From assembly GCF_019218285.1 (NCBI RefSeq), contig NZ_JAHUZG010000009.1:1-64000 (forward strand): a DNA stretch of 64,000 nucleotides, in the 5' to 3' direction. The stretch is from Antarctobacter sediminis (GTDB lineage Bacteria > Pseudomonadota > Alphaproteobacteria > Rhodobacterales > Rhodobacteraceae). Both the position numbers and the translations under genes were made by a program. Shown one piece after another: positions 755 to 19,116 of this stretch; the stretch's first letter is position 1; every line of letters starts with the position of its first letter. The notes below the pieces were generated by a model, which was given only the letters and a program-made list of their open reading frames with translations, made no database searches and was not told where the DNA came from.

Positions 755-764
755 GGGCACCTCT

Positions 765-1703: not shown

Positions 1704-1780
1704 GGGCTGGGCTTTCCTGAACGAAACGACAGGCAAAACTTACCGGCCCGTGTTGACGGATTGCAGAGCCATGCTGAAAG

Positions 1781-1805
1781 ATATGCTCAGAAGTTTTGCG
1801 CATAT
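1781..1805. promoter_or_regulatory. inverted repeat in the ctlX/lrp divergent promoter region
   Basis: ATATGC at 1781-1786 and GCATAT at 1800-1805 are inverted repeats 13 bases apart, 26 bases before the Lrp-type gene and between two divergent starts. Lrp-family proteins often bind such sites and regulate their own gene and a neighbour. The binding role is an inference. Confidence 0.3.
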
Positions 1806-1830
1806 TGCTCAACCCCACTGTGAGATTTGC

Positions 1831-2256: not shown

Positions 2257-2342
2257 CTGGGGCGCAGGACCTGGACGCCCGCATCGGCATGCGCACAACC
2301 TCCCCTATAAAGGAATCGTTGACAGTGGGCTGGAAGAGAATT

Positions 2343-2358
2343 AAACAAACGCTTGTTT
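2343..2358. promoter_or_regulatory. candidate TetR operator, imperfect palindrome
   Basis: AAACAAACGCTTGTTT matches its own reverse complement at 14 of 16 positions. It lies 15 bases before the TetR start codon, where an autorepressor would block transcription, and resembles the AT-flanked ACG/CGT palindromes bound by many TetR proteins. Confidence 0.6.
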
Positions 2359-2373
2359 GGCTAAGAGGCGATC

Positions 2374-2964
2374 ATGAAACCCGAAACGCGTTCGAACAAT
2401 CGGCTGGATATTCTTCTGGACAGCGCGGCCGAGCTATTTTCGACGCGCGGCTATCAGGCGACCACCATGCGCGACATCGCCAAGGCCTGCGGGATGCTGC
2501 CCGGGTCGATCTATTACCACTACGCCAACAAGGAGGCGCTTCTGGTCGCGGTCTACGATGAAGGCGTCAAACGTCTGACCGACCGCGTGACCGAAGCCCA
2601 GAACGCGACGGACGACCCCTGGACCCGTCTGGAAAAGACGTTGGCCACCCATATCGAGATGATCATCGAACCAACCGCCTATGCCAGCGTGATCATCCGC
2701 ATCCTGCCCGGCACCGTCCCCTCGGCCGAGCAGGACCTGATCGACCTGCGGAACCGCTACGAAACCGTTCTGCGCGACCTGGTAGAGGCTTTGCCGCTGC
2801 CTGTTGACGTCGATCGCCGCCTGTTGCGGCTGTTCCTGATCGGCGCGGTCAACCACGTGCCGCTTTGGCACAAGCCCGGCGGGTCCACCCCTGCGGACAT
2901 CGCCCGCGAGCTGGTGCGCTTTGCAAGATGCCCGGCTCTCATCCAGTCAAAAGGATCTGAATAA
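2374..2964 (+). CDS. TetR/AcrR family transcriptional regulator
   Basis: 196 residues. The N-terminal TetR helix-turn-helix is clear (LDSAAELFSTRGYQATTMRDIA, then GSIYYHYANKEALLVAVY), followed by a variable helical ligand-binding domain. The start has a GAGG-type ribosome-binding site and the palindrome at 2343-2358 just upstream. The stop TAA overlaps the ATG of the B12-binding subunit by one base (TAATG), so the regulator is the first gene of the catabolic operon and is translationally coupled to it. The most economical reading is an autorepressor released by an acyl-CoA or free acid of this pathway. The ligand cannot be read from the sequence. Confidence 0.9.
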   Translation: MKPETRSNNRLDILLDSAAELFSTRGYQATTMRDIAKACGMLPGSIYYHYANKEALLVAVYDEGVKRLTDRVTEAQNATDDPWTRLEKTLATHIEMIIEPTAYASVIIRILPGTVPSAEQDLIDLRNRYETVLRDLVEALPLPVDVDRRLLRLFLIGAVNHVPLWHKPGGSTPADIARELVRFARCPALIQSKGSE

Positions 2965-3389
2965 TGGGATACCCGGAACGAGTTCTGGTCACGAAGATCG
3001 GATTTGACGGTCATGACCGCGGCAGCCGTGTGGTTGCAGCCTATCTGCGCGATGCCGGGATGGAGGTGATCTATACCCCGCCATGGCAGGAAATCGCAGC
3101 CGTGGTGAAGCTGGCCATGCAAGAGGACGTGGATGTGGTGGGCGTCAGCTCTCTGGCGACCGATCACCTGATCCTGCCCGACCTGATGGAGGCGCTGCGA
3201 GCCTCCGGTCTGGGCCATGTGCGCGTCATCGTGGGTGGCATCATTCCGCAAAACGAACAACCCGACCTGATCGCGGCGGGCGTCAGCGCGATCTTCAACC
3301 CCGGCGCGACCAGTCAGGAAATCGTCGACACCGTGCGCGGACTGGCCGCCGAGGCCCGCACCGCCCGCGAAGAAGCGGAGATGGCATGA
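2964..3389 (+). CDS. B12-binding small subunit of an acyl-CoA mutase
   Basis: 141 residues forming a single cobalamin-binding Rossmann-like domain. The base-off/His-on signature is intact: K11, D15, H17 and G20 in [10 protein letters not shown], with H17 the lower axial cobalt ligand; then [10 protein letters not shown] and VIVGGIIPQ, which line the nucleotide tail in the family. As in isobutyryl-CoA and 2-hydroxyisobutyryl-CoA mutases, this domain is a separate protein rather than fused to the barrel subunit. Its stop overlaps the start of the large subunit (ATGATGA at 3386-3392), as expected for subunits made in equal amounts. Confidence 0.92.
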
Positions 3390-5047
3390 TGACCACCGAT
3401 CCCAAGCTGAAGACCGCGTTCGACAATTGGTCTGAACGGTATGACCGCGAGATCGGGCAGGACCGGACCGTGGTGAACCGGTCTGGCATCGAGGTTCAGC
3501 CGCTTTACACGCCGCTGGACTGGTCCGAAGACCGCTATCAGGCGGATTTGGGCATGCCCGGCGAGGCCCCCTATACGCGCGGCATCTACAACACGATGCA
3601 CCGGGGCCGGACATGGACCCAGCGCCAGCTGATCGGGCTGGGCACGCCGCAGGATTACAATGCGCGGGTACAGATGCTTCTTCAGCAGGGGGCTTCGGCC
3701 ATCAGCCTGCTGCCCTGCAACTCGGGGTTTCGCGGCATCGACTGCGATGAAAGCCCGGTGCCGCTGTTGGGCACCTGCGGCACGGTCATCAACACGGTCG
3801 ATCACATGGAAGCCGCGCTGGACGGCGTGCCGATTGACCGGATCTCGACCGCGATGAACGATCCCACACCCTTCACGCTGTTCGCCTTTCTCTTGGGCGT
3901 GGCACAGCGGCGCGGCATCCCCTTTGACAAGATCACCGGCACGGCGAACCAGTCCGACTATATCTCGCACTACGTTGCCAATCACATGTTCTATCGCCTC
4001 AGCCAGCCGGGCGCGCGGCGGATGTTCGTGGATCACGTCAAGTTCTGCCGCGAGAACGTGCCCAACTGGAACCCCGTATCGGTGGTGGGCCAGCATATGC
4101 AGCAGGCGGGCGCGACCCCGGCCGAAACCATGGGGCTGACCCTGTCGACGGCGATCCAATACGCCGAGGATTGCATCAACGCGGGCATGGACCCCGACAA
4201 TATCCTGCCCCGCTTTACCTATTTCTTCGACATCTCGATCAGCGTCTTTGAAGAGGTGGCCAAGTTCCGCGCCGGGCGGCGCATCTGGGCGCGGATCACA
4301 CGCGACCGTTTCGGAGCCAAGGATCCCCGGTCGTGGCGGTTCAAGTTCCACGGCCAGACCTCTGGCGTCGACCTGACCCAACAGCAACCGCTCAACAATA
4401 TTGCGCGGGTGACGGCTCAGGCCATCGCCGGGATCTTTGGCGGGTTGCAGTCGATGCACACCGACGGTTTCGACGAGGCGCTGGCCTGCCCGACCGAAGA
4501 CTCCGCCCGGATCGCCGTCGCCACGCAGAACATCCTGCGCGAAGAGGCACATCTGTGTGACGTCATCGACCCGCTGGGGGGTTCGTACTATGTCGAGGCG
4601 CTGACCAACCAGATGGAGGAAAAGATCCTCGAGGTCATGGACGTGATCGAACAGGCAGGCGGCATGTACAAGGCCGTCGATGCCGGCATCGTCCAGCGCA
4701 TGATCGGAAAATCCGCCTTTGAATATCAGAACCGCATCGAAACGGGGGGCGAAAAGGTCGTCGGCGTGAACTGCTATCAGGCCGACACGGAACAGCAAGA
4801 GGTCGACACCTACCGCCCAAACCGCGCCGCGATGGAGGCGCAGGTGGCCCAGTTCCGCGCCTTCAAGGCAGGTCGCGATCAGGACGTTGTGCGCAAGGCG
4901 CTGGAGGATCTGGCCCGCGCGGCAACCGGCACCGAAAATGCCTATCAAAAGGTGGTCGACGCGGCGCTGGTCGGTGTCACCCATGGCGAAATCATCGCCT
5001 GCCTGCGACGCGAGCTTGGCTTTGGCCATCCGCAGATGGTGGCCTGA
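3386..5047 (+). CDS. divergent coenzyme B12-dependent acyl-CoA mutase, large (barrel) subunit; substrate unknown
   Basis: 553 residues (the second ATG at 3389 is equally possible). The methylmalonyl-CoA mutase fold is recognisable: [19 protein letters not shown] at about 63-81, the histidine that matches catalytic His244 (H237 in GQHMQQAGA), [37 protein letters not shown] and [13 protein letters not shown]. Key specificity residues differ. Tyr89 of methylmalonyl-CoA mutase (RQYAG) is Leu82 here (RQLIG). The carboxylate-binding Arg207 falls on Ala198/Asn199. Tyr243 is Gln236. The FDL...GYDSD stretch is [16 protein letters not shown] therefore do not call it methylmalonyl-CoA mutase. It should rearrange the skeleton of some other branched or substituted acyl-CoA, in the style of isobutyryl-, 2-hydroxyisobutyryl- or pivalyl-CoA mutases. 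Confidence 0.85.
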
Positions 5048-5983
5048 ATGTCCATGGCAGAGACATCGCGCATCGAACGATTGGCGCAAAAGGTCCGGCA
5101 AGGTGACCCCATGGCGCTTGGCCGCGCGCTGACCATCGCCGAAAACGGCGGGGAAGAGGGCAAGGCGCTGTTGCGCCTGCTGGAGGCCGATACCGGCAAG
5201 GCCCGGATCATCGGCTTTACCGGCCCGCCGGGCGCGGGAAAGTCCACACTTGTCGACGCGCTGATCCGCGAATGGCGCAAGACAGGTCAGCCGGTGGCGG
5301 TGCTGGCCATCGACCCGGTCAGCCCGGTCTCGGGCGGGGCGGTTCTGGGCGACCGCACGCGCATGGGTGCGCACAGTCTGGATGACGGTGTTTTCATCCG
5401 CTCGGTTTCGGCGCGCGGGCATCTGGGCGGACTGTGCCTTGCGGCGCATGACATGGCCGACGTGATAGATGCCGCGGGCTGGCCCTTGATCCTGATCGAA
5501 ACCGTCGGCGCGGGCCAGTCGGAAACCGAAATCACGCAGGTCGCGGACCAGAGCGTTGTCATTTCGGCCCCGGGTCTGGGCGACGAATTGCAGGCCATCA
5601 AGGCCGGCATCCTCGAAATCGCCGACGTGCTGGTCGTCAACAAGGCCGACCGCCCGGAGGCCGAACAGACTGCCAAGCACCTCGAAGCGATGCTGGCGCT
5701 GCGGGCCAGCGACCGGCAGGACATTCCGGTGCTGCGCGTGGCGGCCTCGACCGGCGCAGGCGTGGATGACCTGCGGGCCGTTCTGGACAGCCGCGTAACC
5801 CAAGCCCGCGCCGACCGCCGGGCCAAGCGCAACTCGCGCAGGCTGGCGCTGGCCGCGCTGGAACTGGCCAGCCGTATTTCAGCCGGGATTCCCGAAGACG
5901 GGCTGGCCGAACTGGATCAAACCGATATCGAACGGGTGCTGCGGCAATCGCTGGCCACCCTGACGGCAGAAACGGAGACCTGA
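5048..5983 (+). CDS. meaB: MeaB/ArgK-type G-protein chaperone for the B12 mutase
   Basis: 311 residues. It begins directly after the mutase stop. The G3E-type GTPase features are present: P-loop GFTGPPGAGKST, AIDPVSPVSGGAVLGDR with the switch region, LILIETVGAGQSETE and the NKAD guanine-specificity motif. MeaB proteins gate loading of adenosylcobalamin into their partner mutase and help eject damaged cofactor. Placement next to the two mutase subunits makes it the dedicated partner of this divergent enzyme. No adenosyltransferase lies nearby, so the cofactor must come from the general cellular supply. Confidence 0.92.
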   Translation: MSMAETSRIERLAQKVRQGDPMALGRALTIAENGGEEGKALLRLLEADTGKARIIGFTGPPGAGKSTLVDALIREWRKTGQPVAVLAIDPVSPVSGGAVLGDRTRMGAHSLDDGVFIRSVSARGHLGGLCLAAHDMADVIDAAGWPLILIETVGAGQSETEITQVADQSVVISAPGLGDELQAIKAGILEIADVLVVNKADRPEAEQTAKHLEAMLALRASDRQDIPVLRVAASTGAGVDDLRAVLDSRVTQARADRRAKRNSRRLALAALELASRISAGIPEDGLAELDQTDIERVLRQSLATLTAETET

Positions 5984-5984
5984 C

Positions 5985-7145
5985 ATGCCTCTCGACACCT
6001 CTTGGATGACCGATGAGCACCTGATGTTCAGCGAGACCATCCGCCGTTTCTTTGCCGATGAGATCCTGCCCAACGAACCCCGCTGGGAACAGGCAGGACA
6101 AGTGGAACCGTCCCTGTGGACCCGCGCCGGCGCGATGGGCCTGCTGGGCGGCGGCATCCCCGCCGAATATGGCGGTCTGGACGCCGAAAGCGCCAACAGC
6201 AGCGGCATCGACGCGCTGATCTGCATGGAACAGGGCCGGGTGAACGCGCTTGGCTGGGGTTTTATCGTTCAGAGCATCGTCAAGAACTACGTGGTGATGC
6301 ACGGCACCCCCGAGCAAAAGGCCAAATGGTTGCCAATGCTGGCCACGGGCGAGGCGATCCCCTCGATCGTGATGAGCGAACCGGGCGCAGGGTCCGACCT
6401 GAAAGGCATTCGCACACGTGCGGTGCGGGACGGCAACGACCTTGTGCTGGACGGGTCCAAGATCTTTATCAGCAACGGGCAGACCTCGAATTTCATGCTG
6501 GTGGTGGCCCGGACCGGCGACACCGGCTCTGCCCGCGACATCTCGTTGGTGGCGGTCGAGCCGGAACAGATCGGCGCGGTGGTGCGCGGCGCGAACCTCG
6601 ACAAGATCGGGATGAAGGCGCAGGACACCTCGGAACTGCGATTTGACGCGGTGCGGGTGCCTGCGGCCAACATCCTTGGCGGGGTCGAAGGCCGGGGCTT
6701 TTCGCAGTTGATGCAGGAACTGCCCTGGGAACGTCTGTTGATTGCCTATTGGTCGCTGGGTGCCATCGAAGGCGCGCTGGACCTGACCCGAACCTATGTT
6801 GCCGAGCGTCAGGCCTTTGGCAAACGCATCATGGATTTCCAGAACACGCGCTTTGCCCTGGCCCGCTGCAAGGTCAAGCTGGAGGTCACCCGCGCCTTTG
6901 TCGACAAATGCATGGCCCAGTACCTCGCAGGCGACCTGGATGCCGCAACGGCCTCGATCGCCAAGCTATGGGCGACCGAGGCACAGGGAGAGGTCATCGA
7001 CACCTGCCTGCAACTGCATGGCGGATATGGCTATATGACCGAATATCCGATCAGCCAGTTCTACACCAACGCCCGGGTCCAGCGGATCTATGGCGGCACA
7101 TCCGAAATCATGCTGGAGCTGATTTCACGATCACTGGATCAGTGA
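5985..7145 (+). CDS. acyl-CoA dehydrogenase
   Basis: 386 residues, the standard flavoprotein length. The FAD/substrate motif SEPGAGSDLKGIRTRA and the C-terminal RIYGGTSEIMLELISRSL are clear. The usual base in the C-terminal YEGT motif is replaced (YGGT), while a Glu is present in ELPWERLLIAY (E249). That is the position used by isovaleryl-CoA and long-chain acyl-CoA dehydrogenases, so the enzyme should be active with the base on helix G and may prefer branched or bulky substrates. It probably oxidises the product of the B12 mutase (or its input) to the 2,3-enoyl-CoA. It starts 2 nt after meaB. Confidence 0.9.
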   Translation: MPLDTSWMTDEHLMFSETIRRFFADEILPNEPRWEQAGQVEPSLWTRAGAMGLLGGGIPAEYGGLDAESANSSGIDALICMEQGRVNALGWGFIVQSIVKNYVVMHGTPEQKAKWLPMLATGEAIPSIVMSEPGAGSDLKGIRTRAVRDGNDLVLDGSKIFISNGQTSNFMLVVARTGDTGSARDISLVAVEPEQIGAVVRGANLDKIGMKAQDTSELRFDAVRVPAANILGGVEGRGFSQLMQELPWERLLIAYWSLGAIEGALDLTRTYVAERQAFGKRIMDFQNTRFALARCKVKLEVTRAFVDKCMAQYLAGDLDAATASIAKLWATEAQGEVIDTCLQLHGGYGYMTEYPISQFYTNARVQRIYGGTSEIMLELISRSLDQ

Positions 7146-7261
7146 CAGGACACGCGCCGCCGGCATGGGAGGTGCCGGGCGGGGGGGTGTCCAAAAATTT
7201 TTGCCCACAGATTCCTTTATAATAGAGGCTTCTCAGGGATAAAGCAGAGAAGGGGAGGGGA
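7146..7261 (+). promoter_or_regulatory. gap before livH with a consensus -10 hexamer
   Basis: This 116-base gap is the largest inside the mutase island up to 12605. It holds a perfect TATAAT at 7218-7223, but no good -35 at 16-18 bases upstream (7195-7200 reads AAATTT), and a strong AGGGGAGGGG ribosome-binding site for livH. A second, internal promoter for the transporter genes is possible but not proven. Confidence 0.35.
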
Positions 7262-8131
7262 ATGCTTTCACTGCAGGACTACACGACCTTGTTCGTGACC
7301 GGCGCCAGCCAGGGCTGCGCCTATGGCCTGATCGCACTGGGTTTCGTGCTGATCTACAAGGCCACCGAGGTGGTCAACTTTGCACATGGCGAATTCATGA
7401 TGCTGGGCGCCTTTGCGGCCATCACCTTGACCAGCCTGTTCGGCTTCTGGCCCGGCTTGATCTGCGCGGTGCTTGCGGTGGGAACCGTGGGCTATCTGCT
7501 GGACGCGGTGGTCATGCGCCGGATCATCGGGCAAAGCCAGACCAGCGTCTTTATCCTGACGGTCGCCTTCGGCTTTATCTTTCGGTCCATCGCCGGGATG
7601 ATCTGGGGCTGGGACCTGCTGTCGCTGAGTACGCCCTTCTCGGGCAGCTTTGACATGGGATCAGTGTCAATCCGCAGCGACAGGATCGCGATCATCGTCC
7701 TGACCGTGGTCATGTGCGCCGGGCTGTTCTTTTTCTTTGCCCGCTCACGTCTGGGCGTTGCCATGCAGGCCGCCAGCCAGAACCAGTTGGCCGCCTACTA
7801 CATGGGCATCCCTGTCAAACGTCTGGTTTCGATCGTCTGGGCCATCGGCGCGATGATCGCGGCGCTGGCGGGCGTCTTCAATGCCCCGCTGACGCAGGTC
7901 GACACGCAGATCGGCGCGCTGGGGCTCAAGGCGCTGGCCGGGTCGGTGATCGGCGGTTTTGGGTCGATCCCCGGGGCCTTGCTGGGCTGCCTGCTGATCG
8001 GCGTGGCCGAACCCTTTGCCGACTACTTCCTGCCCGCGATCAAGGGCGTCTCTGCCTACATCCTGATGCTTGTGGTCCTCTTCATCAAACCCGAGGGCCT
8101 GATCGTCCAGACCTTCCAGAAAAAGGTGTGA
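7262..8131 (+). CDS. livH: branched-chain-type ABC transporter permease (LivH family)
   Basis: 289 residues, almost wholly hydrophobic, with the LivH hallmark YGLIALGFVLIYKATEVVNFAHGEFMMLGAF near the N-terminus and the conserved ALGLKALAGSVIGGFGSIPGALLGCL in the second half. It forms a channel with LivM in the inner membrane. In this operon it is enclosed by acyl-CoA enzymes, so the cargo is more probably the carboxylic acid degraded by the pathway than leucine or isoleucine. Liv-family systems are known to carry aromatic and aliphatic acids as well as amino acids. Confidence 0.92.
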   Translation: MLSLQDYTTLFVTGASQGCAYGLIALGFVLIYKATEVVNFAHGEFMMLGAFAAITLTSLFGFWPGLICAVLAVGTVGYLLDAVVMRRIIGQSQTSVFILTVAFGFIFRSIAGMIWGWDLLSLSTPFSGSFDMGSVSIRSDRIAIIVLTVVMCAGLFFFFARSRLGVAMQAASQNQLAAYYMGIPVKRLVSIVWAIGAMIAALAGVFNAPLTQVDTQIGALGLKALAGSVIGGFGSIPGALLGCLLIGVAEPFADYFLPAIKGVSAYILMLVVLFIKPEGLIVQTFQKKV

Positions 8132-8134
8132 GCC

Positions 8135-9211
8135 ATGCAGGTTTTGTTCAAAACCAGCTATGATCAGGACATCGACCACCTGCCCAAACGCGGAGAGAAG
8201 ATCCGCGTCGGGCTGGCCCTTCTGGCCGCTGCCCTCCTGCCCCTGCTGGTCGATCCCTATTACCTGACCGAAATCGGGATGCTGTTTGTCTACATCGTGG
8301 CCGGGGTCGGCCTGATGCTGCTGGTGGGGTTTACCGGGCAGGTCAGCTTTGGTCACTCGGCCTTTCTGGGCATCGGTGCCTATGGGCATGCCGTGTTCCT
8401 GACCATGGGGCTGCCCTTTCTTGTGTCGCTGGCGCTGTCGGTTGCACTGGCCGGGATTGCGGGCCTGATCCTTGGCCGGTCGGCGTCGCGAATGCACGGG
8501 TTCTACCTTGCCATTGCGACGCTGGTCTTCGCCGTGCTGGTCGAAACCATGATCGGCGAATGGGAACATGTGACCGGCGGCCATGCCGGGATCGCGGTGC
8601 CCGACATTCAGATCCTTGGCCTGTACCTGACCGACCCGGCGCAACAGTATTACCTTGACCTTGTCATCACCGTTTTCGTTCTGCTGGCTGTCGCGAACCT
8701 GATGCGCGGACCAACCGGGCGGGCCTTTCAGGCGATCCGCGACTCGGAACTTTCGGCGCGGTCGCTGGGGGTGAATGTCGCCTGGCACAAGATCAAGGCC
8801 TTTGGTCTGAGCGCGGCCATCACCGGGCTGGCCGGGGTGCTGATGGCGCATCACCTGTTTTACCTCTCGCCCGAAACCTTTGGCATCAATGAATCGCTGC
8901 GCCTGCTGTTGATGGTTGTGGTGGGCGGCATGGGTTCGTTGCTGGGGGCGGTTCTGGGGGCGATCTTTATCACCGCACTGCCCTTCGGAATCAGCCTGTT
9001 GCGCAGCGCGCTGCCCGACGGCATCGCCAATCAGGCCGGGCTGGAGCCGCTGCTGTTCGGCGTCGTGATCGTGCTGGTGCTGATCTATGCACCCGAAGGC
9101 ATGGCTGGCCGCTGGCACAAGTTCCGGCTCTTTCTTGAAACCTTCCCCTACTACAAGCGCGCGAGCTTCGTGCGGCAGAAAAGCTATCTCAAGACGGAGC
9201 GGATGCGATGA
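8135..9211 (+). CDS. livM: branched-chain-type ABC transporter permease (LivM family)
   Basis: 358 residues with the LivM signature GFTGQVSFGHSAFLGIGAYGHA, then FQAIRDSELSARSLGVNVAWHKIKAFGLSAAITGLAG and VVGGMGSLLGAVLGA. It is 3 nt downstream of livH, and its stop overlaps the livG start (ATGA). The N-terminal 25 residues or so are hydrophilic (DQDIDHLPKRGEKIR), as in several alphaproteobacterial LivM proteins. It pairs with LivH. Confidence 0.92.
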   Translation: MQVLFKTSYDQDIDHLPKRGEKIRVGLALLAAALLPLLVDPYYLTEIGMLFVYIVAGVGLMLLVGFTGQVSFGHSAFLGIGAYGHAVFLTMGLPFLVSLALSVALAGIAGLILGRSASRMHGFYLAIATLVFAVLVETMIGEWEHVTGGHAGIAVPDIQILGLYLTDPAQQYYLDLVITVFVLLAVANLMRGPTGRAFQAIRDSELSARSLGVNVAWHKIKAFGLSAAITGLAGVLMAHHLFYLSPETFGINESLRLLLMVVVGGMGSLLGAVLGAIFITALPFGISLLRSALPDGIANQAGLEPLLFGVVIVLVLIYAPEGMAGRWHKFRLFLETFPYYKRASFVRQKSYLKTERMR

Positions 9212-9975
9212 ACCGGCTTGAAGTTGAAAACCTGTCCGTCGAATTCGGTGGCGTGCGGGCCGTGGACGGCGTGTCCTTCATGGTCGAACCGGGCGAGATC
9301 TTTGCCATCATCGGCCCCAACGGCGCGGGCAAATCGACGATCTTCAACCTGCTCAGCCGGATCTACACCCCTTCCGGAGGCACGCTGCGCTATGGGGCGC
9401 ATGACCTGCTGGCCGCCGAACCGCACCGCGTGGTGGATTTCGGCATCGCACGGACCTTTCAGAACATCGAATTGTTCGAAAACGCGACCGTGCTGCAAAA
9501 CCTGCTGGTCGGGCGTCATCGCCACACCCGCCGCAACCTGCTGGCCGAGATGATCTTTCCCGGAAAGGTCCGCGCCGAGGAACGCGAACACCGCATGGCG
9601 GTCGAGGGCGTGATCGATCTGCTCGACATGTCCCATCTGCGCGATGAACGCATCCGCGACCTGCCCTATGGCGCGCGCAAGAACGTCGAGATCGCCCGCG
9701 CCCTGTGCTCCGAACCTTCGCTGTTGCTGCTGGATGAACCGGCCTCGGGTCTGAACAACGAGGAAACCGACGATCTGGCCTTTTGGCTGGAGGACATCCG
9801 CGACGATCTGGGCATCACCATGATGATGGTCGAACACGACATGTCGCTGGTCAACCGCATGGCCGACAGAGTGCTGGCGCTGAACAACGGCGCGCCTCTC
9901 GCGCTTGGCACGGCGGCCGAGGTGCAATCCGACCCCACGGTGCAGGCCGCCTACCTTGGAGGAGCCAATGCCTGA
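9208..9975 (+). CDS. livG: branched-chain-type ABC transporter ATP-binding protein (LivG family)
   Basis: 255 residues. Walker A GPNGAGKST, a signature region of the LivG type (DLPYGARKNVEIARAL, where LSGGQ is replaced as is normal in this subfamily), Walker B LLLLDEPASGLN and H-loop VEHDMSLV are all present. The start overlaps the livM stop by four bases. It energises uptake together with LivF. Confidence 0.93.
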   Translation: MNRLEVENLSVEFGGVRAVDGVSFMVEPGEIFAIIGPNGAGKSTIFNLLSRIYTPSGGTLRYGAHDLLAAEPHRVVDFGIARTFQNIELFENATVLQNLLVGRHRHTRRNLLAEMIFPGKVRAEEREHRMAVEGVIDLLDMSHLRDERIRDLPYGARKNVEIARALCSEPSLLLLDEPASGLNNEETDDLAFWLEDIRDDLGITMMMVEHDMSLVNRMADRVLALNNGAPLALGTAAEVQSDPTVQAAYLGGANA

Positions 9976-10741
9976 CCCTTTGCTGGAGGTGCGCAACCTC
10001 GAAACCTACTATGGCCCGATCATGGCGATCCGCGGTGTCAGCCTGTCGGTTGAACCGGGCGAGATGGTCGCCGTTCTGGGTGCCAATGGCGCGGGCAAGA
10101 CCACGCTGATGAAATCCATCTCGGGCGCGCTGGACACCCGCAAGGGGCGGGTCCTGCTGGAAGGGCAGGAAATTCAGGGACGCGATCCCGACTGGGTTGC
10201 CGCGCAGGGCGTGGCCCATGTGCCCGAGGGACGCGAGGTCTTTCCCTTTCTCAGCGTCCGCGAAAACCTTGCCATGGGGGCTTTCCGGCGTCGCGACCGC
10301 CGGGCCGTCGCCGAGGACCTTGAAAAGGTCTTTGAGTTCTTCCCGGTGCTGCGCACCTACGAGGCAAAGATGGCGGGATACCTGTCCGGCGGTCAGCAAC
10401 AGATGCTGGCGATCGGGCGCGGATACATGTCCCGCCCGCGCCTGATGATCCTCGACGAACCCAGCCTTGGGCTGTCACCCAAGCTGGTCGAAGAAATCTT
10501 TGGAATCGTCAAACGGCTGAACGACGAGGACGGCATGACCATCCTGCTGGTCGAGCAGAACGCCAACGTGGCGCTTCAGGTTTCGCGCCGCGCCTACGTG
10601 ATGGAGGTCGGCGGCGTGGTCATGGACGGCCGATCCCGGGACCTGCTGCAAAGTCAGGACATCAAGGAATTCTACCTCGGCCAAAAGGAACAGGGCGCGC
10701 GGGAAAACCGCCGCTGGAAAAAGCAGAAAACCTGGAGGTAG
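9968..10741 (+). CDS. livF: branched-chain-type ABC transporter ATP-binding protein (LivF family)
   Basis: 257 residues from the ATG at 9968, which overlaps the end of livG by eight bases and has GGAGG just upstream. The frame is open from 9905 but that part is unrelated. Motifs are complete: Walker A GANGAGKTT, signature YLSGGQQQMLAIGR, Walker B LMILDEPSLGLSP, H-loop VEQNANVAL. The C-terminus is slightly long and basic (RENRRWKKQKTWR). Confidence 0.93.
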   Translation: MPDPLLEVRNLETYYGPIMAIRGVSLSVEPGEMVAVLGANGAGKTTLMKSISGALDTRKGRVLLEGQEIQGRDPDWVAAQGVAHVPEGREVFPFLSVRENLAMGAFRRRDRRAVAEDLEKVFEFFPVLRTYEAKMAGYLSGGQQQMLAIGRGYMSRPRLMILDEPSLGLSPKLVEEIFGIVKRLNDEDGMTILLVEQNANVALQVSRRAYVMEVGGVVMDGRSRDLLQSQDIKEFYLGQKEQGARENRRWKKQKTWR

Positions 10742-10748
10742 GCGTGAG

Positions 10749-12605
10749 ATGAACCAGATATCCTCGATTGACGGCAGCGCGTTTGACCCCAAGGTTCACA
10801 GGATCGACGGCTGCGACACGGTGCCAAAGCTGTTCCTGAAAAAAGCGGCCGAGCGTGGCGACCGCATCGCCATGCGCGAAAAGGACTTTGGCCTCTGGCA
10901 GACCTATTCTTGGAAGGATTTTCACGACCGGGCCATGCGCATTGCCCATGGGCTGCGCAAACTGGGCCTGAACAAAGGCGATGTGGTTTCGATCCTGTCC
11001 GAGGACTGCAAGGAATGGGTCTGGGCCGATATGGGCGTGATGCTGGCTGGTGGCACCGTCAACGGCATCTATCCCACCTACCAGCCCGCGCAATTGTCTT
11101 ATGTCCTGTCCGACAGCGGCACCCGCGTGCTGTTCGTCGAGGGCGAGGAACAACTCGACAAATACATCGAGATCCGCGACGAGGTGCCCGGCGTCGAAGC
11201 CGTGTTCTTCTTCGATGACAAAGGCCTGCGTACCTTTCGGGACGACCGCATCCAGCCCATCGAACACCTGTATGAAACCGGCGGGCTGGCCTGGCGCGAA
11301 CATCCGGGCGAGATCGAAAAGATCGTTGCGGACACCTCGCCCGACGATCTTGGCATCCTTTGCTACACGTCCGGCACCACCGGGCGGCCCAAGGGGGCGA
11401 TGATCCCGCAGCGGGCGCTGGTCTTTCAGATGACGCTGGCCCCGGATCATTTCCGCATCGGGCCGGATGACGAACTGTTGACCTACCTGCCGCTGTGCCA
11501 TGTGGCGGAACGGCTGTTTTCGCTTTGCATGCCGCTGGCGACGGGGGCGACCATCAACTTTGCCGAATCCCCGGACTCGGTGCCTCAGAACCTCAAGGAA
11601 CTGTCGCCGACGGTGGTTTTCGGCGTGCCCCGCATCTGGGAGAAATCCTATTCCCGGATCAACACGCTGATGAGCGAGGCCACATGGATCGGCAAGACTG
11701 TCTATGGGCTGGCCCGCAAGCTGGGCGAACGGCGCGCGGACAAGCTGATCGCGGGTCAGCCGCTTTCACCGCTGGACAGGCTGGGGTTCGCGCTGGCCGA
11801 CCGGTTGGTGTTCCACAACATCAAGCAGTTGATCGGGCTGGACCGGGCACAGTTCCTTGCCTCGGGGGCGGCACCGATTTCGGAAAGCCTGCTGCGCTGG
11901 TATCTCAGCCTCGGCCTGCCCATCGTCGAGGTCTATGGCCAGACCGAGATGGGGATCGCCACGCTGACCCGCGCGGGCACGTTCAAACCGGGCACCGTCG
12001 GCCCCGCCGTGCCCGGTGTCAGCCTCAAGCTGGCCGAAAGCGGCGAAATCCTGATCCGCTCGGACGGCGGGTTCACCGGCTACCTGAACCTGCCCGAGAA
12101 AACCGCCGAAACGCTTGTGGACGGCTGGATTCACACCGGCGATGTGGGCCAGCTGGACGAGGATGGCAGCCTGCGGATCACCGACCGGATCAAGGACATC
12201 ATTATCACCGCGGGCGGCAAGAACATCACCCCCAGCCAGATCGAGAACGAGCTGAAATTCTCGCCCTACATTTCGGACAGCGTGGTGGTGGGCGACAAGC
12301 GCAAGTACCTGACGGTGCTCATCATGATCGACAAGGAAAACGTCGAACATTTCGCCCAGATGAACGCCATCCCCTTCACCGACTACCGTTCACTTTGTGC
12401 GCGGCCCGAGATCGTCGATCTGATCGACGGCGAGATCGCCAAGGTAAACACGCGGTTCTCGCCGGTGGAGCAGATCAAGAAGTTCCGCCTGATCGACGTG
12501 CTGCTGACCGCCGAGGATGAGGAACTGACGCCCACGATGAAGCTCAAGCGCAGCTTCGTCAGCGAGAAATACAGCGCGCTGATCGACCAGATGTACGGCG
12601 CGTAA
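10749..12605 (+). CDS. AMP-forming acyl-CoA ligase (long-chain/FadD15-like)
   Basis: 618 residues of the ANL superfamily. The ATP-binding motif CYTSGTTGRPKGA, the adenylation motif VYGQTEMG, the hinge WIHTGDVGQLDEDGSLRITDR followed by KDIIITAGGKNITPSQIE, and the C-terminal lysine region TPTMKLKRSFV are all intact, so it should make an acyl-adenylate and then the CoA thioester. It lies between the transporter ATPase and its binding protein, so it probably activates the imported acid before the B12 rearrangement. By length and order it resembles long-chain ligases, but those sequences do not predict chain length well. Confidence 0.9.
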   Translation: MNQISSIDGSAFDPKVHRIDGCDTVPKLFLKKAAERGDRIAMREKDFGLWQTYSWKDFHDRAMRIAHGLRKLGLNKGDVVSILSEDCKEWVWADMGVMLAGGTVNGIYPTYQPAQLSYVLSDSGTRVLFVEGEEQLDKYIEIRDEVPGVEAVFFFDDKGLRTFRDDRIQPIEHLYETGGLAWREHPGEIEKIVADTSPDDLGILCYTSGTTGRPKGAMIPQRALVFQMTLAPDHFRIGPDDELLTYLPLCHVAERLFSLCMPLATGATINFAESPDSVPQNLKELSPTVVFGVPRIWEKSYSRINTLMSEATWIGKTVYGLARKLGERRADKLIAGQPLSPLDRLGFALADRLVFHNIKQLIGLDRAQFLASGAAPISESLLRWYLSLGLPIVEVYGQTEMGIATLTRAGTFKPGTVGPAVPGVSLKLAESGEILIRSDGGFTGYLNLPEKTAETLVDGWIHTGDVGQLDEDGSLRITDRIKDIIITAGGKNITPSQIENELKFSPYISDSVVVGDKRKYLTVLIMIDKENVEHFAQMNAIPFTDYRSLCARPEIVDLIDGEIAKVNTRFSPVEQIKKFRLIDVLLTAEDEELTPTMKLKRSFVSEKYSALIDQMYGA

Positions 12606-12650
12606 ACCGACGGCCAGCCATGCCGACAGATATTCAGGGAGGAGACCAGA

Positions 12651-13817
12651 ATGACACGCAGAACACTTCAGGCCGCCGCGCTTGCGCTTTGCCTTGGCGG
12701 GGCCGCGCTGGCCGATACGCAGGGTGTGACCGATACGGAAATCCGTATAGGATCGTATTCGGACCTGTCCGGGCCGGTTGCAGTCTGGGGCGTCGCGGCC
12801 ACCAACGGCCAGCGCATGCGCTATGACGAGGTGAACGCCGAAGGCGGCATTCACGGCCGCAAGATCACCTTCCTTGTCGAGGACATGCAGTATCAGGTGC
12901 CGCTGGCCGTCCGTGCCGCCAACCGCCTTGTGAACCGAGACAAGGTTTTCGCCATGGTGGCCAATGTCGGCACGCCGCACAATAACGCCACCATGCCGAA
13001 ACAGCTTGCAGCGGGCGTTCCCAACGTCTTTCCGCTGACCGCGGCGCTGTCGATGTTCGAACCGGCCAACCCGCTGACCATCGGCTATCTGACCAGCTAC
13101 CGCGACCAGACCGTCGGCGGGATGAAATACCTCGTCGAAGCGACCGGCAAGAAAAAGGTCTGCCTGCAAACCCAGGCCACCGATTTCGGCGCCGAGGTCG
13201 AACTTGGCTTTGACGCGGCGGTCAGGGATCTGGGCCTTGAGGTCACCGCCGTCGGACGCCACCGCACCGCCGAAACCGAATTCACCGGTTCGGTGACCAG
13301 CCTCAAGAATTCGGGCTGTGAGATCCTTGTGCTGGGCACTTTCGTCCGGGACACGTTGCAAATGTACACCGCCGTGCGCGAGGCGGGCTGGGACGTGCCG
13401 GTGATCGGGAACATGGTGCCGCTGATCCCGCTGATCGCGGAAACGCCCGAGATGGACGGATTGTACGTGGCCGCGCCTTTTGCCCTGCCGGATTTCGAGG
13501 CCGCCCGGGAAACCGCCCCAGCCGTGCACGACTGGTACACCCGCTACGTCGCGGAATTCGGGCAGGAGCCGAACCCGCAGGCGCAGATCGGCTATGTCAT
13601 GGCCGACCTCGTGGTGACTGCGCTCAAGGCGGCGGGTCCGGATGTGACGGCGGAAAGCTTCATGCAGGCGTTCAACGGGATTTCCGACTATCGCGATATC
13701 TTTGACGGCCCCAATATCTCGTACAGCAAGACCAAGCGCAGCGGCATGGACAGCCTGATCCTGTCACAGGTGCAGAACGGCGAATGGGTCGTTATAAAGG
13801 AAGAACTTCCGTTTTGA
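12651..13817 (+). CDS. branched-chain-type ABC transporter substrate-binding protein (LivK family)
   Basis: 388 residues. A signal peptide (MTRRTLQAAALALCLGGAALA) is followed by the type I periplasmic-binding fold: GVTDTEIRIGSYSDLSGPVAVWGVAATNGQRMRYDEVNAEGGIHGRKI is characteristic. It has a strong GGGAGGAG ribosome-binding site. It completes the LivHMGF transporter upstream and sets which acid enters the pathway. Binding proteins of this subgroup often serve acids rather than amino acids. Confidence 0.9.
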   Translation: MTRRTLQAAALALCLGGAALADTQGVTDTEIRIGSYSDLSGPVAVWGVAATNGQRMRYDEVNAEGGIHGRKITFLVEDMQYQVPLAVRAANRLVNRDKVFAMVANVGTPHNNATMPKQLAAGVPNVFPLTAALSMFEPANPLTIGYLTSYRDQTVGGMKYLVEATGKKKVCLQTQATDFGAEVELGFDAAVRDLGLEVTAVGRHRTAETEFTGSVTSLKNSGCEILVLGTFVRDTLQMYTAVREAGWDVPVIGNMVPLIPLIAETPEMDGLYVAAPFALPDFEAARETAPAVHDWYTRYVAEFGQEPNPQAQIGYVMADLVVTALKAAGPDVTAESFMQAFNGISDYRDIFDGPNISYSKTKRSGMDSLILSQVQNGEWVVIKEELPF

Positions 13818-13824
13818 GTGACAG

Positions 13825-13846
13825 GCGCCCGGTCCCGGCCGGGCGC
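13825..13846 (+). other. stem-loop between the binding-protein and MerR genes
   Basis: GCGCCCGG at 13825-13832 pairs perfectly with CCGGGCGC at 13839-13846 around a six-base loop. No run of T follows, so it is not a classic terminator. It could protect the 3' end of the highly expressed binding-protein message or cause partial attenuation. Confidence 0.5.
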
Positions 13847-13866
13847 AACGATACATGGAGCCCGCA

Positions 13867-14418
13867 ATGACCGCACCCCGCGTCCGTACCATCGGTCAGG
13901 AATTCGAAGGCCAGACCGCTTCGGCGGAACCGGACCTGTTCACGATCTCGGAAATCGCCGAACAGGTCGGCGTCAGTGAAAAGACCATTCGGTTCTACGA
14001 AGAAAAAGGCCTGATCAAACCGGCGAGGCTGGGCGGGCAGCGGGTCTTTACCCGTGCCGATCGGGGGCGGATCCGGATCATCGTCCGGTCGAGCCAGCAG
14101 ATCGGCCTGTCCCTGCACCAGATCGGCAAATACCTCGAAGCCTATGACGCCAGCGCCGACGAACTGGACGCGATCAAGACCCTGTATCGCTACACCTACG
14201 GCTTTCTCGAAGATTTCCAGAAACGGCGCGCCGCGCTGGACGAAGGAATCCGCGGGCTGGACCAGATCCTGACATTCGCCGTCGAACGGTTGCAGGAAAA
14301 CGGCGTGACTCAGGAAGAATTCGAAGAGCTCGACCGCACGGCAGAGGCCCCGGCCCGCGCCCGCACCGGACGCAAGCCCAAAGACGCCAAGCCGGCCGGG
14401 ACCGAACCGGACGGTTGA
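13867..14418 (+). CDS. MerR family transcriptional regulator
   Basis: 183 residues from the ATG at 13867 (an in-frame ATG at 13855 adds four residues). The MerR DNA-binding domain FTISEIAEQVGVSEKTIRFYEEKGLIKPAR is followed by a long helix ending in the dimerising region, and then a Lys/Pro/Ala-rich tail. It lacks the cysteines of metal sensors, so a small organic ligand such as an acyl-CoA is likelier, as in the LiuR-type MerR regulators of branched-chain acid catabolism. It is the second regulator of this island and stands at the head of the thiolase-hydratase-SDR half. Confidence 0.87.
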   Translation: MTAPRVRTIGQEFEGQTASAEPDLFTISEIAEQVGVSEKTIRFYEEKGLIKPARLGGQRVFTRADRGRIRIIVRSSQQIGLSLHQIGKYLEAYDASADELDAIKTLYRYTYGFLEDFQKRRAALDEGIRGLDQILTFAVERLQENGVTQEEFEELDRTAEAPARARTGRKPKDAKPAGTEPDG

Positions 14419-14493
14419 TCCGCCCGGTCTGACAGACCCGGCCCGGACGGGCACAGCATCATCAGTTTCACAAGACCAGGAGTTGGGCATCCC

Positions 14494-15678
14494 ATGACCC
14501 AAGACATCTTTCTTTGTGCCGGAAAACGGACACCCTTCGGAGATTTTGGAAAATCTCTCAAGGACATAGAAGGCACGGATCTGGCAATTCATGCCGCCCG
14601 CGCGACGCTGGCCGCCAATGCCCTGGACGCTGAGAAGGTCGATCACCTCGTCTGCGGGAATGTCATTCCCGTGGGGCAGGGCGGGCTGTTTTCGTCGCGG
14701 GTGACGGCGCTGGGGGCCGGAATGCGCGAGGACAGTTGCGCGCTGAACGTGTCGCGCGCCTGCGGGTCGGGCACACAGGCCATTGTTTCTGCCGCCGAAC
14801 AGATCATCTCGGGGCACAGCCGCCTTGCGCTGGCGGGAGGCTATGAAAACGCCTCGCGCGTGCCCTACGTGCTGACCGGTGGCCGCTGGGGCATGAAGCG
14901 GGGTGCCGGAGAGGTGCTCGACATGATCGACTACGCCTACCGCGACCCGTTCGACCTGTCGCTGATGGGCGAAACCGCCGAAAACCTGACCGAGGATTAC
15001 GGCTATCTGCGCCAAGACATGGACGACTATGCGCTGACTTCGCAGCAGCGCGCCGGCGCCGCGATCAGCTCTGGTTTTCTGGCCCGCCAGATTGCGCCCA
15101 TCGACGTGCCCGAGAAAAAGGGCACGCGGCTGTTCGAAACGGACGAATTTCCCCGCCCCCAGATCACCCGCGACAAGCTGGCGACGCTGAAACCGGCGTT
15201 CCGCGCGGGCGGGCAGGTCACGGCTGGCAATTCCAGCGGTCTGACCGACGGCGCGGCCTTCCTTTTGGTCTGCAACAGCGATGCGGCCCGCGCCAACGGG
15301 CTCACCCCGCGCGCGCGGCTGGTAGACTGGGAAATCGTCGGTGTGCCGCCGCGCATCATGGGCTGTGGTCCGGTGCCCGCCATCGACCGGCTGCTGAAAC
15401 GGCGCGGTATGACCGTGGACGACATCGACTATTTCGAGATCAACGAAGCCTTTGCCGTCGTGAACCTGCACGCCGAACGGATGCTGAACATCCCGCGTGA
15501 CCGGACCAACCTTTACGGCGGCGGCATTTCCATCGGCCACCCGCCCGGCGCAACCGGCGTGCGCATGACGCTGACGGCTTTCGACCATCTTGATGACACC
15601 GGCGGGCGCTATGCGATCATCTCGATGTGTCTTGGCGCGGGGCAGGGCATGGCCGTGCTGATCGAACGTGCGGGCTGA
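14494..15678 (+). CDS. acetyl-CoA acetyltransferase / 3-ketoacyl-CoA thiolase
   Basis: 394 residues with the full thiolase triad: nucleophile C90 in SRACGSGTQAI, H349 in GGGISIGHPPGATG and C379 in CLGAGQG, plus the conserved FEINEAFAVVNLH. It should cleave the 3-ketoacyl-CoA made by the adjacent SDR, giving acetyl-CoA or propionyl-CoA plus a shorter acyl-CoA. It stands 75 nt after the MerR gene with its own ribosome-binding site, and its end is followed at once by the hydratase gene. Confidence 0.93.
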   Translation: MTQDIFLCAGKRTPFGDFGKSLKDIEGTDLAIHAARATLAANALDAEKVDHLVCGNVIPVGQGGLFSSRVTALGAGMREDSCALNVSRACGSGTQAIVSAAEQIISGHSRLALAGGYENASRVPYVLTGGRWGMKRGAGEVLDMIDYAYRDPFDLSLMGETAENLTEDYGYLRQDMDDYALTSQQRAGAAISSGFLARQIAPIDVPEKKGTRLFETDEFPRPQITRDKLATLKPAFRAGGQVTAGNSSGLTDGAAFLLVCNSDAARANGLTPRARLVDWEIVGVPPRIMGCGPVPAIDRLLKRRGMTVDDIDYFEINEAFAVVNLHAERMLNIPRDRTNLYGGGISIGHPPGATGVRMTLTAFDHLDDTGGRYAIISMCLGAGQGMAVLIERAG

Positions 15679-15685
15679 GACCGTC

Positions 15686-16186
15686 ATGGACGCCGCCGCG
15701 CACCCTGGCTTGTTCGACCGGCAGACGGTCGGCCAAGCCACCACGCCGCAAGAAATCCACGTCGACCGCGCCAGCCTGATCCGCTTTGCCGAGGTCATTG
15801 GCGAAACCGATCCGGTCTTTCTAAGCGTCAAGGCCGCGCGCGCGGCGGGGCACCCGGACATCGTGGCCCCGCCAACCTACGCGGCGGTCATCGACATGGC
15901 GGCGATGCAGGATGCGGCCCGTGCCGGGGTGCCGGATGTACACGCGCTGATCCGGGCCGATTTCCGCTATCTCCTGCATGGCGAGGAAACCTATCACTAT
16001 CACGGTCCGATCCACGCCGGGGACAGGCTGTACCATCAGACCACCGTTCTTGGCTTTTCGGACGCAGGCGGCGGACGGATGGAACTGGCCCGGCTGGAAA
16101 CCGTGATCCGCCATCCCGATCGCGGACCTTTGGTGACCTGCCAGCGGACGCTGGTGCATCGGCTGGACACAGGAGCAGAGCGATGA
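15686..16186 (+). CDS. MaoC-like hot-dog protein (FAS1-type dehydratase N-terminal family)
   Basis: 166 residues from the ATG at 15686; an in-frame GTG at 15668 overlapping the thiolase is the alternative. The protein resembles the non-catalytic half of double hot-dog (R)-hydratases: HVDRASLIRFAEVIGETDPVF, HPDIVAPPTYAAVIDM, then YHYHGPIHAGDRLYHQTTV. In related bacteria such halves are separate polypeptides that pair with a catalytic MaoC partner. The next gene, overlapping by four bases, is such a partner, so the two most probably form a heteromeric enoyl-CoA hydratase. Confidence 0.82.
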   Translation: MDAAAHPGLFDRQTVGQATTPQEIHVDRASLIRFAEVIGETDPVFLSVKAARAAGHPDIVAPPTYAAVIDMAAMQDAARAGVPDVHALIRADFRYLLHGEETYHYHGPIHAGDRLYHQTTVLGFSDAGGGRMELARLETVIRHPDRGPLVTCQRTLVHRLDTGAER

Positions 16187-16626
16187 CCGCCACGCAACCG
16201 CCCCCTGAGACCGCCCGGACAGGCGACAGCATCGGAAAGCTGACCTTCGGCCCCATCTCGCGCCGGACGCTGGCGCTTTATGCGGGGGTATCGCTGGATC
16301 ACAACCCGATCCACATCGACATCGACTTTGCCCGCAAGGCAGGTCAGCCGGATGTCTTTGCGCATGGCATGTTGGGCATGGCGCAATTCGGGCGGCTGGT
16401 GACGGGATGGGCCGGGGCCGCGCGGATCAGCGCCCTGTCCGCCCGCTTTGTCGCCATCGTTCCGGTCCACGCGGAACTGCACGTGACAGGCACGGTAACG
16501 GACCGCCGCGCCCAAGGTGACGAAACTGAACTGGAGCTCGCACTGCGGGCTGTTCTTCAGGATGGAACGCCGGTGCTGAAAGGCAGCGCCACGGTCCACC
16601 TTGCCGCCGCTTCACAGATTTCCTGA
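16183..16626 (+). CDS. MaoC-type (R)-specific enoyl-CoA hydratase subunit
   Basis: 147 residues. The hydratase-2 motif with catalytic Asp and His is clear in AGVSLDHNPIHIDIDFAR, followed by VFAHGMLGMAQFG. It should hydrate the 2-enoyl-CoA from the acyl-CoA dehydrogenase to the (R)-3-hydroxyacyl-CoA. Its start overlaps the previous hot-dog gene (ATGA), pointing to a two-subunit enzyme. Hydratase-2 gives the (R) product, so the following SDR must be (R)-specific, unlike the crotonase/FadB route. Confidence 0.88.
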   Translation: MTATQPPPETARTGDSIGKLTFGPISRRTLALYAGVSLDHNPIHIDIDFARKAGQPDVFAHGMLGMAQFGRLVTGWAGAARISALSARFVAIVPVHAELHVTGTVTDRRAQGDETELELALRAVLQDGTPVLKGSATVHLAAASQIS

Positions 16627-16641
16627 ACAGAAAGACGACAG

Positions 16642-17472
16642 ATGGACAACCAAAGACTCAAGGGCAAGACAGCCTATGTCACCGGTGCCGGACGCGGGAT
16701 CGGCCGTGCCGTGGCGCTGAAACTGGCGCGCGAAGGGGCGCATGTGGTCCTCAACGATCTGGACGCCGCCCCCGCCGCCGAGGTGGTCGAGGCGATCAAT
16801 GCGCTTGGCGGTCGGGCCCATGCGGTGGTCGGCAGCGTGACCGAGGCGGGCTTTGCCGAACGGTTCATCCAATCCGGAATGGAAAGTTTTGGCGGCGTCG
16901 ACATCATCGTGAACAACGCCGGGTACACTTGGGATTCCTTCGTCGGCAAAATGACGGACGCCCAGTTCGACGCCATGCTGAACGTCCACGTCAAAGCCCC
17001 CTTCCAGGTGCTGCGCGCCGCCGCCCCGCATATCCGCAACTTTGCCGAGACCGAGGCGACACAAGGGCAGGAAGTGTTCCGCAAGGTGGTGAATATCTCG
17101 TCCATCGCCGGGCTGGGCGGCAATGTGGGGCAGGCCAATTATGCCTCGGGCAAGGCCGCCGTCGTCGGGCTGACCAAGACGCTGGCCAAGGAATGGGGCC
17201 GCTACAAGGTCAATGTAAACTGCGCCGCTTTCGGCTTTATCGAAACCCGCCTGACCGAGGCCCGCGACACCAAGGCCAGCGTTGTCGTCGATGGAAATAC
17301 TGTCGGGGTCGGCATCCCCAAGGCCGCCGCCGACGCCTTTGGCGCGCAGGTTCCGCTGGGCCGTGGCGGCACCCCCGAAGAGGCGGCGGATGGCGTCTAC
17401 CTGCTCTGCGCTCCGGAATCGAATTACGTCTCGGGGCAGGTTCTGGTCATCGGCGGGGGGCTGACGATCTGA
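16642..17472 (+). CDS. short-chain dehydrogenase/reductase, probable (R)-3-hydroxyacyl-CoA dehydrogenase
   Basis: 276 residues of the classical SDR family: cofactor motif TGAGRGIG, NNAG, catalytic Ser in VVNISSIAG and YASGK. An acidic Asp after the second strand (LNDLDA) favours NAD over NADP. The insert HIRNFAETEATQGQEVFRKV resembles the D-3-hydroxyacyl-CoA dehydrogenase domain of peroxisomal multifunctional enzyme 2. Placed right after a MaoC hydratase pair, it most probably oxidises the (R)-3-hydroxyacyl-CoA to the ketoacyl-CoA for the thiolase. It is the last gene of the island. Confidence 0.87.
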   Translation: MDNQRLKGKTAYVTGAGRGIGRAVALKLAREGAHVVLNDLDAAPAAEVVEAINALGGRAHAVVGSVTEAGFAERFIQSGMESFGGVDIIVNNAGYTWDSFVGKMTDAQFDAMLNVHVKAPFQVLRAAAPHIRNFAETEATQGQEVFRKVVNISSIAGLGGNVGQANYASGKAAVVGLTKTLAKEWGRYKVNVNCAAFGFIETRLTEARDTKASVVVDGNTVGVGIPKAAADAFGAQVPLGRGGTPEEAADGVYLLCAPESNYVSGQVLVIGGGLTI

Positions 17473-17545
17473 CCGGCTGCCGCCGGACCCCGAAACCGGC
17501 CGGTCGGCAAGGTGCCTCCTCCGCAGCCTGACCCGGCCTGCCGCA

Positions 17546-17579
17546 CCCTGCCCGGTCACGCGACCGGGCAGGGTTTTTT
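17546..17579 (+). terminator. rho-independent terminator closing the B12-mutase island
   Basis: CCCTGCCCGGTC (17546-17557) pairs perfectly with GACCGGGCAGGG (17562-17573) around a four-base loop, followed by six T. This is a textbook terminator for the plus strand, 73 bases after the SDR stop and just before the convergent transporter gene. Confidence 0.95.
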
Positions 17580-17589
17580 CATTTGCCGG

Positions 17590-18897: not shown

Positions 18898-19116
18898 GAA
18901 GCTCTCCTTGCTTAGATAAAACAGCACCTTATTCGGCGACTATCAGTGCCGGGTTGCCGTTGAAAGGTCTTGCAGCCAAGGACAGGGGATTAATTTTTGG
19001 GCGCTTTGTGTACCGCTTTGACAAGGCACCGCGACGGGGAAACCGACCCGCACGAAAGATCGACGCCGCATCATTTCAGCGCCAAAATTAACATAATTCA
19101 AATTATCCGACTGCGC

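Follow-up and report, generated by a model that had tools for sequence, protein, structure and literature searches.

The island of 16 genes on the forward strand at positions 2374–17472 of the window (the first 64,000 nucleotides of Antarctobacter sediminis contig NZ_JAHUZG010000009.1) carries an adenosylcobalamin (AdoCbl)-dependent acyl-CoA mutase cassette that is probably of the pivalyl-CoA mutase type. We propose a route in which this cassette is coupled to a module for acid uptake and chain shortening, and we give the full route an even chance of being correct. A branched-chain amino acid-type (LIV) importer would take up a tert-butyl-ended acid, such as 4,4-dimethylpentanoate or pivaloylacetate from pinacolone, and a ligase would form its CoA ester. 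An acyl-CoA dehydrogenase, a hydratase pair and a short-chain dehydrogenase/reductase (SDR) would then lead to 4,4-dimethyl-3-oxopentanoyl-CoA, which a thiolase would split into acetyl-CoA and pivalyl-CoA. The mutase, kept active by the chaperone MeaB, would shift the CoA-carbonyl group to an adjacent methyl to give isovaleryl-CoA, the breakdown of which would be completed by the leucine pathway of the host. The TetR regulator would work from a single operator and be released by an intermediate. We infer the substrates, step order, flux and regulation of this scheme from the genes present, the clade and pocket of the mutase, the conservation of cassette and operator, the linkage of thiolase and carboxylase genes to the mutase and the leucine genes of the host.

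The mutase is built from separate large and small subunits rather than one fused chain. We take the large subunit to start at ~3386, so that it shares 4 bp with the small subunit gene, although the open reading frame (ORF) caller gave 3083. A plasmid search found it to be 68% identical to Xaut_5043 of Xanthobacter autotrophicus Py2, whose small subunit is Xaut_5044. This pair is presumably the authentic pivalyl-CoA/isovaleryl-CoA mutase, reportedly characterised by Kitanishi, Cracan and Banerjee in 2015. A scan of named genomes yielded 268 relatives, and the top 80 were retained for reading; because its two peptide patterns came from the clade itself, the scan is biased toward its own kind. 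Large subunits from the scan loci, from further loci and from the window itself (110 rows, 105 distinct, some organisms having been fetched twice) were aligned and placed in a tree built by a quick method, with SH-aLRT (approximate likelihood-ratio) support only, no bootstrap and long outer branches flagged. The window enzyme and Xaut_5043 belong to a single clade of 100 rows on a long stem (SH-aLRT 100), with the other 10 mutases outside, and share a subclade of 43 rows within it (SH-aLRT 97).

The residue pair aligned with Tyr89/Arg207 of methylmalonyl-CoA mutase (MCM), presumably the one that sets specificity, also separates the clade from its relatives. It is Leu81 in 97 and Asn198 in 96 of the 100 clade rows, and Tyr/Arg (7), Ile/Gln (1) or Phe/Gln (2) in the outsiders. 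The Leu/Asn pair is common to the window enzyme and Xaut_5043 and differs from those of the MCM, ethylmalonyl-CoA mutase (Ecm), 2-hydroxyisobutyryl-CoA mutase (Hcm) and isobutyryl-CoA mutase (Icm)-like enzymes compared, the two Phe/Gln rows being called Icm-like from these residues only. The smaller Leu would suit a roomier pocket. Cys110, Ser112, an inserted Asn187, Ser189, His194, His199, Gln235 and Asp281 are fixed in all 100 clade rows and different in all 10 outsiders, with the reservation that columns 76–83 and 185–191 overlap the search patterns and constancy there is partly a selection effect.

Other substrate classes were considered for the window enzyme and rejected from its pocket residues, family scores and position in the tree. 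MCM is excluded by Leu/Asn in place of Tyr/Arg and by a score of 423.7 bits, for the large subunit alone, against the NF006944 cut-off of 876. For Hcm, the enzyme has Leu/Asn rather than Ile/Gln, which we take to be the Hcm pair, and a Leu at the column of the substrate Asp (presumably Asp117). It is without the Phe/Gln pair, the presumed signature of Icm, and is only 28% identical to, and on a separate branch from, the Ecm-like gene of the host. The host genome has three mutase genes: the island copy, one grouping with MCM-type rows and the Ecm-like one, the last two presumably MCM-type and Ecm by likeness. The original prediction held that the mutase fits no known substrate class, which is mostly wrong, as there is a close homologue whose substrate is presumably known. 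The finding is real but less mysterious than first reported; the novelty left to it lies in the thiolase linkage, the operator conservation and a definite pathway that can be tested.

The order TetR–small subunit–large subunit–MeaB is a widespread cassette. Among the 99 clade loci, 71 have 2 kb or more to either side of the large subunit; 69 of these have the small subunit, 60 MeaB and 57 a same-strand upstream TetR gene, as counted by tblastn thresholds, so that some misses may be weak matches. Record titles place the cassettes in phyla including Pseudomonadota, Actinomycetota, Myxococcota and Thermodesulfobacteriota, mostly in metagenome-assembled genomes (MAGs). A near-palindrome upstream of TetR matches the 22-letter consensus at 15 or more positions in 55 of 64 usable loci, compared with 0.23% of shuffles (20 letter shuffles per locus); the consensus was chosen from 15 loci, leaving ~49 of the 64 fresh, some of them near-identical. 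No second operator was found elsewhere in the window, nor in the genome at up to 2 mismatches, where a reversed control pattern gave one match per strand. On a plasmid of Sphingobium sp. YC-XJ3 (locus L114, 12420–27962), ligase–thiolase and TetR–mutase–MeaB are present twice, the copies separated by IS6100 and ISSp1, which we read as a recent duplication.

A thiolase clade recurs beside this mutase. The window thiolase shares 44% identity with the closest paralogue that its genome encodes, but 59–76% with thiolases encoded no more than 10 kb from the mutase in 9 of the 99 loci (L029, L035, L040, L041, L063, L090, L102, L106 and L114, with L090 and L106 from the same organism), which by their titles come from Myxococcota, Acidimicrobiales and several proteobacterial groups. 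In the thiolase tree it groups with L029, L035, L040 and L041 (94/99; drawn open, just under the level for a star). At L114 (ligase and thiolase) and L106 (ligase between MeaB and thiolase), no further close partners could be named, not every neighbour being annotated; other thiolase loci also contain dehydrogenases or SDRs. In a sample of genomes of the class, the thiolase occurs in 2 of 7 other genomes with the mutase and 8 of 377 without it (Fisher p 0.012), a co-occurrence that is suggestive only. At L147 (3255–10500, genome G295), a member of this thiolase clade lies by an MCM-like mutase with MeaB. Because a pivalyl-type mutase yields a beta-branched acyl-CoA that is not directly thiolysable, we place the thiolase ahead of the mutase, where it would convert 4,4-dimethyl-3-oxopentanoyl-CoA to pivalyl-CoA and acetyl-CoA; for the same reason, the order first suggested, rearrangement followed by beta-oxidation, is awkward. 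A broader version of this scheme is possible, though we hold it only tentatively: an undescribed aerobic tert-butyl route in which a dedicated thiolase clade, recruited repeatedly, would cut pivaloylacetyl-CoA (from pinacolone carboxylation or tert-butyl-ended fatty acids) to pivalyl-CoA, and a B12 mutase, whose cassette occurs in several phyla behind the same conserved TetR operator, would pass this to leucine catabolism.

Clues to the product come from carboxylase genes. In L118 and L154 (Roseobacter plasmids with near-identical mutases) and L074 (a betaproteobacterial MAG), the cassette is followed by a liu-like operon of carboxyltransferase, crotonase, biotin carboxylase and acyl-CoA dehydrogenase, and in L060 carboxylase subunits and dehydrogenases lie near the cassette in a different order and on the opposite strand. 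This is a minority context among the 99 loci surveyed (L154 was fetched separately later). The L118 crotonase and that of the host leucine operon both pass NCBIfam NF005675, and the carboxyltransferase of L118 has matches to AccD1, to a chain named propionyl-CoA carboxylase beta and to chains of methylcrotonyl-CoA carboxylase. Such a context would fit a mutase converting an alpha-dimethyl to a beta-methyl acyl-CoA. The leucine (liu) pathway, which would consume the proposed product, is encoded in the host but outside the island, in an operon on contig C1 with isovaleryl-CoA dehydrogenase (608 bits), methylcrotonyl-CoA carboxylase beta (797 bits), a biotin carboxylase subunit, 3-hydroxy-3-methylglutaryl-CoA lyase and crotonase. 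Calling the island complete was therefore too strong, since the genes consuming the beta-methyl product are on another contig.

The same operons could be read in favor of larger substrates, with the mutase converting longer 2,2-dimethyl or alpha-quaternary acyl-CoAs to beta-methyl acyl-CoAs that are opened by carboxylases of the leucine or citronellol type. The L118 crotonase also matches gamma-carboxygeranoyl-CoA hydratase, under the cut-off, and the island itself has a FadD11-like ligase and a long-chain-type dehydrogenase. We nevertheless consider this unlikely, as it leaves the thiolase linkage unexplained and the characterised member of the clade presumably takes C5 substrates.

The features of the island are collected in Table 1. 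Pfam and NCBIfam profiles back the domain content of all 16 genes, most of which overlap or are tightly spaced, with intergenic distances of –11 to +75 bp, the sole exception being the 116 bp that separate LivH from the acyl-CoA dehydrogenase. This gap (7146–7261) contains a weak terminator-like hairpin (7177–7192) and a TATAAT-like stretch, and a second promoter ahead of LivH is possible. Because of the hairpin, the island may comprise two transcription units split at this point. The terminator hairpin that closes the block (17545–17574; 10 of its 13 pairs G-C) sits between convergent genes and ranks first of 21 terminator-like sites on both strands of positions 1–20000 (shuffle mean 15.5, standard deviation 3.7). 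The original description of a one-direction block with these domains and a strong terminator is thus confirmed, and its reading as a B12 mutase block directed at an acid resistant to ordinary beta-oxidation, with genes for import and activation, is supported.

Table 1. Genes and sites of the mutase island (window coordinates; scores in bits)
Feature	Position	Strand	Basis
Putative TetR operator, near-palindrome	2342..2363	.	18/22 consensus letters; single site in window
TetR regulator of cassette	2374..2964	+	PF00440, PF17932; same-strand upstream of mutase in 57/71 loci
B12-binding mutase small subunit	2964..3389	+	PF02310; TIGR00640 126 bits, cut-off 57.45
Mutase large subunit, probable pivalyl-CoA-mutase-type clade	3386..5047	+	PF01642; tree; 68% to Xaut_5043
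MeaB GTPase chaperone	5048..5983	+	TIGR00750 274.7 bits, cut-off 240.75
Acyl-CoA dehydrogenase	5985..7145	+	Human long-chain acyl-CoA dehydrogenase is the nearest solved relative; 1 bp past MeaB
LivH permease	7262..8131	+	PF02653
LivM permease	8135..9211	+	PF02653
LivG ATPase	9208..9975	+	PF00005, PF12399
LivF ATPase	9968..10741	+	PF00005; NF008626 LivF and TIGR03410 UrtE both under cut-off
AMP-forming acyl-CoA ligase, FadD11-like	10749..12605	+	PF00501, PF23562; NF038343 374 bits, cut-off 950 missed
LivK-like periplasmic binding protein	12651..13817	+	PF13458
MerR regulator	13855..14418	+	PF13411
Thiolase, clade recurrently linked to mutase	14494..15678	+	PF00108, PF02803; tree
FAS1-type dehydratase half (R-hydratase pair)	15668..16186	+	PF13452
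MaoC hydratase half	16183..16626	+	PF01575
SDR, putative 3-hydroxyacyl-CoA dehydrogenase	16642..17472	+	PF00106, PF13561
Intrinsic terminator	17545..17579	+	13-pair stem + T run

The uptake and beta-oxidation half can be found without the mutase. L158 (genome G234) has FAS1 dehydratase, MaoC, dehydrogenase, SDR, LivHMGF, ligase and LivK in one run at 50–69% identity, with an SCPx-like thiolase (Thiolase_C_1) ahead of the hydratase pair; parts of the module occur in L155–L157, and none of the genomes of L155–L158 gave a mutase match. The ligase is common, being present in 37 of 384 other genomes of the class at E 1e-140. On these grounds the island is evidently composite, with the uptake/beta-oxidation half a separable module. 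The FAS1 dehydratase and MaoC had no match at E 1e-5 in loci L024–L118. Among 42 loci that extend 9 kb or more to either side of the mutase, 17 have at least three Liv-type matches no further than 10 kb away, and 12 of these 17 also have a ligase of at least 30% identity; the matching is loose, and L027 looks false (ATPase matches only, 26–28%). No Liv-type set was found in 10 control loci (7 thiolase, MCM, Ecm and leucine), a small and uneven control. The mutase-adjacent LIV–ligase sets fall into two or more kinds, including a Py2 type and a window type (L060, L088), a diversity that suggests recruitment to the mutase more than once. The synteny first proposed as a check was not seen at family level: the LIV, ligase and thiolase set was beside the mutase in none of 4 other mutase genomes of a 295-genome sample, within the stretches read, one contig being only 5.2 kb.

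A mobile mutase cassette might simply have landed by chance next to a common acid-degradation operon. The mutase-free module of L158, the widespread ligase, the 116 bp gap and the different neighbors of the nearest cassettes would all be expected if so. We regard such a chance arrangement as improbable, however, given that the dehydrogenase begins only 1 bp past MeaB, that L060 and L088 too have orthologues of the window-type LIV–ligase set near the mutase, and that the thiolase linkage recurs in several groups.

It is also conceivable that the mutase acts first, rearranging a 2-hydroxy- or 2-methyl acyl-CoA whose product is degraded by the SDR and thiolase, as for 2-hydroxyisobutyrate. An SDR and a thiolase do suit a 3-hydroxyacyl-CoA product, and Hcm is the nearest solved relative of the large subunit (369 bits, compared with 328 bits for human MCM). 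The identity to Xaut_5021, which we take to be Hcm, is only 34%, the pocket letters differ and carboxylase operons adjoin the cassettes of relatives, making this order very improbable. The pivalyl-CoA/isovaleryl-CoA reaction is reversible; no biosynthetic gene linked to the mutase turned up here. Use of the mutase to make pivalyl-CoA from isovaleryl-CoA, as the starter unit of tert-butyl fatty acids, is hardly credible, as its partners (importer, ligase, dehydrogenase and thiolase) are catabolic.

Several observations weigh against the proposed pivalyl-CoA route itself: (i) the function of Xaut_5043 is itself presumed; (ii) the nearest mutase relatives, L025 (90%) and L028 (85–87%), have no similar thiolase, ligase or hydratase pair nearby; (iii) 8 of the 10 other thiolase-bearing genomes of the class sample are without the mutase, and in G295, which has both, the thiolase is by the MCM-like mutase and not adjacent to the clade mutase; (iv) the L158 stretch with the LIV–ligase–hydratase module has no mutase; (v) the 116 bp gap may divide the block, and no second operator was found ahead of LivH or the thiolase and (vi) the L118 dehydrogenase is no clear isovaleryl-CoA dehydrogenase.

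A RepC match at 47590–48075 on the minus strand marks the contig (95,684 bases) as a repABC plasmid or a chromid, whole or in part. An AtoE-type short-chain fatty acid transporter (PF02667; 17590–18927) is encoded beyond the terminator, in convergent orientation to the island, and might be a further carrier of a short acid. Ten ORFs elsewhere in the window were scanned, separately from four genes neighboring the island; 7 gave families, including transport and sugar genes, with no visible link to the island. The window also encodes an M24 peptidase (32198–33292). In the Roseobacter-group relatives L024, L025 and L026, a conserved protein of ~390 residues adjoins the cassette, and a protein annotated as Xaa-Pro peptidase family has a like position in L115 (15451–16653).

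Quaternary carbons such as those of tert-butyl groups resist biodegradation and are found in fuels, plastic additives and drugs. Pivalyl-CoA mutase is known in vitro, and among the matches listed from the open-licence literature we found no account of its natural pathway. The conserved cassette and operator and the linked thiolase point to specific, testable enzymes and substrates for tert-butyl degradation.

The known systems nearest to the island are the Py2 locus, Hcm, IcmF and the liu pathway. Hcm (PDB 4r3u), the best solved match, is likewise a two-subunit AdoCbl acyl-CoA mutase, but its Ile/Gln pair and the Asp at column 108 are both missing from the window enzyme. IcmF (fused Icm) also interconverts pivalyl-CoA and isovaleryl-CoA (PMC10481361). 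Unlike IcmF, the window mutase is unfused, and it scores far under the NF045497 cut-off. In a Diaphorobacter plasmid (L117, 26856–31623), a second, different mutase unit adjoins the cassette, with a crotonase, a Tyr/Arg-pair mutase, a B12-binding protein, a CoA transferase and a GTP-binding protein. Plasmid pXAUT01 of Py2 (L113, L116) has two mutase sets ~20 kb apart, Xaut_5018–5021 and Xaut_5042–5044, with an ATP-cobalamin adenosyltransferase between them. The order of the Py2 locus is TetR–small–large–MeaB–thioesterase–PaaK–ligase–LIV; no match to the island-type thiolase clade lies within 10 kb of its mutase, and it differs from the island in its PaaI thioesterase, its PaaK and its LIV–ligase set. 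Like the island, however, it combines a mutase of the same clade, in the order TetR–small–large–MeaB, with a LIV importer and ligase downstream.

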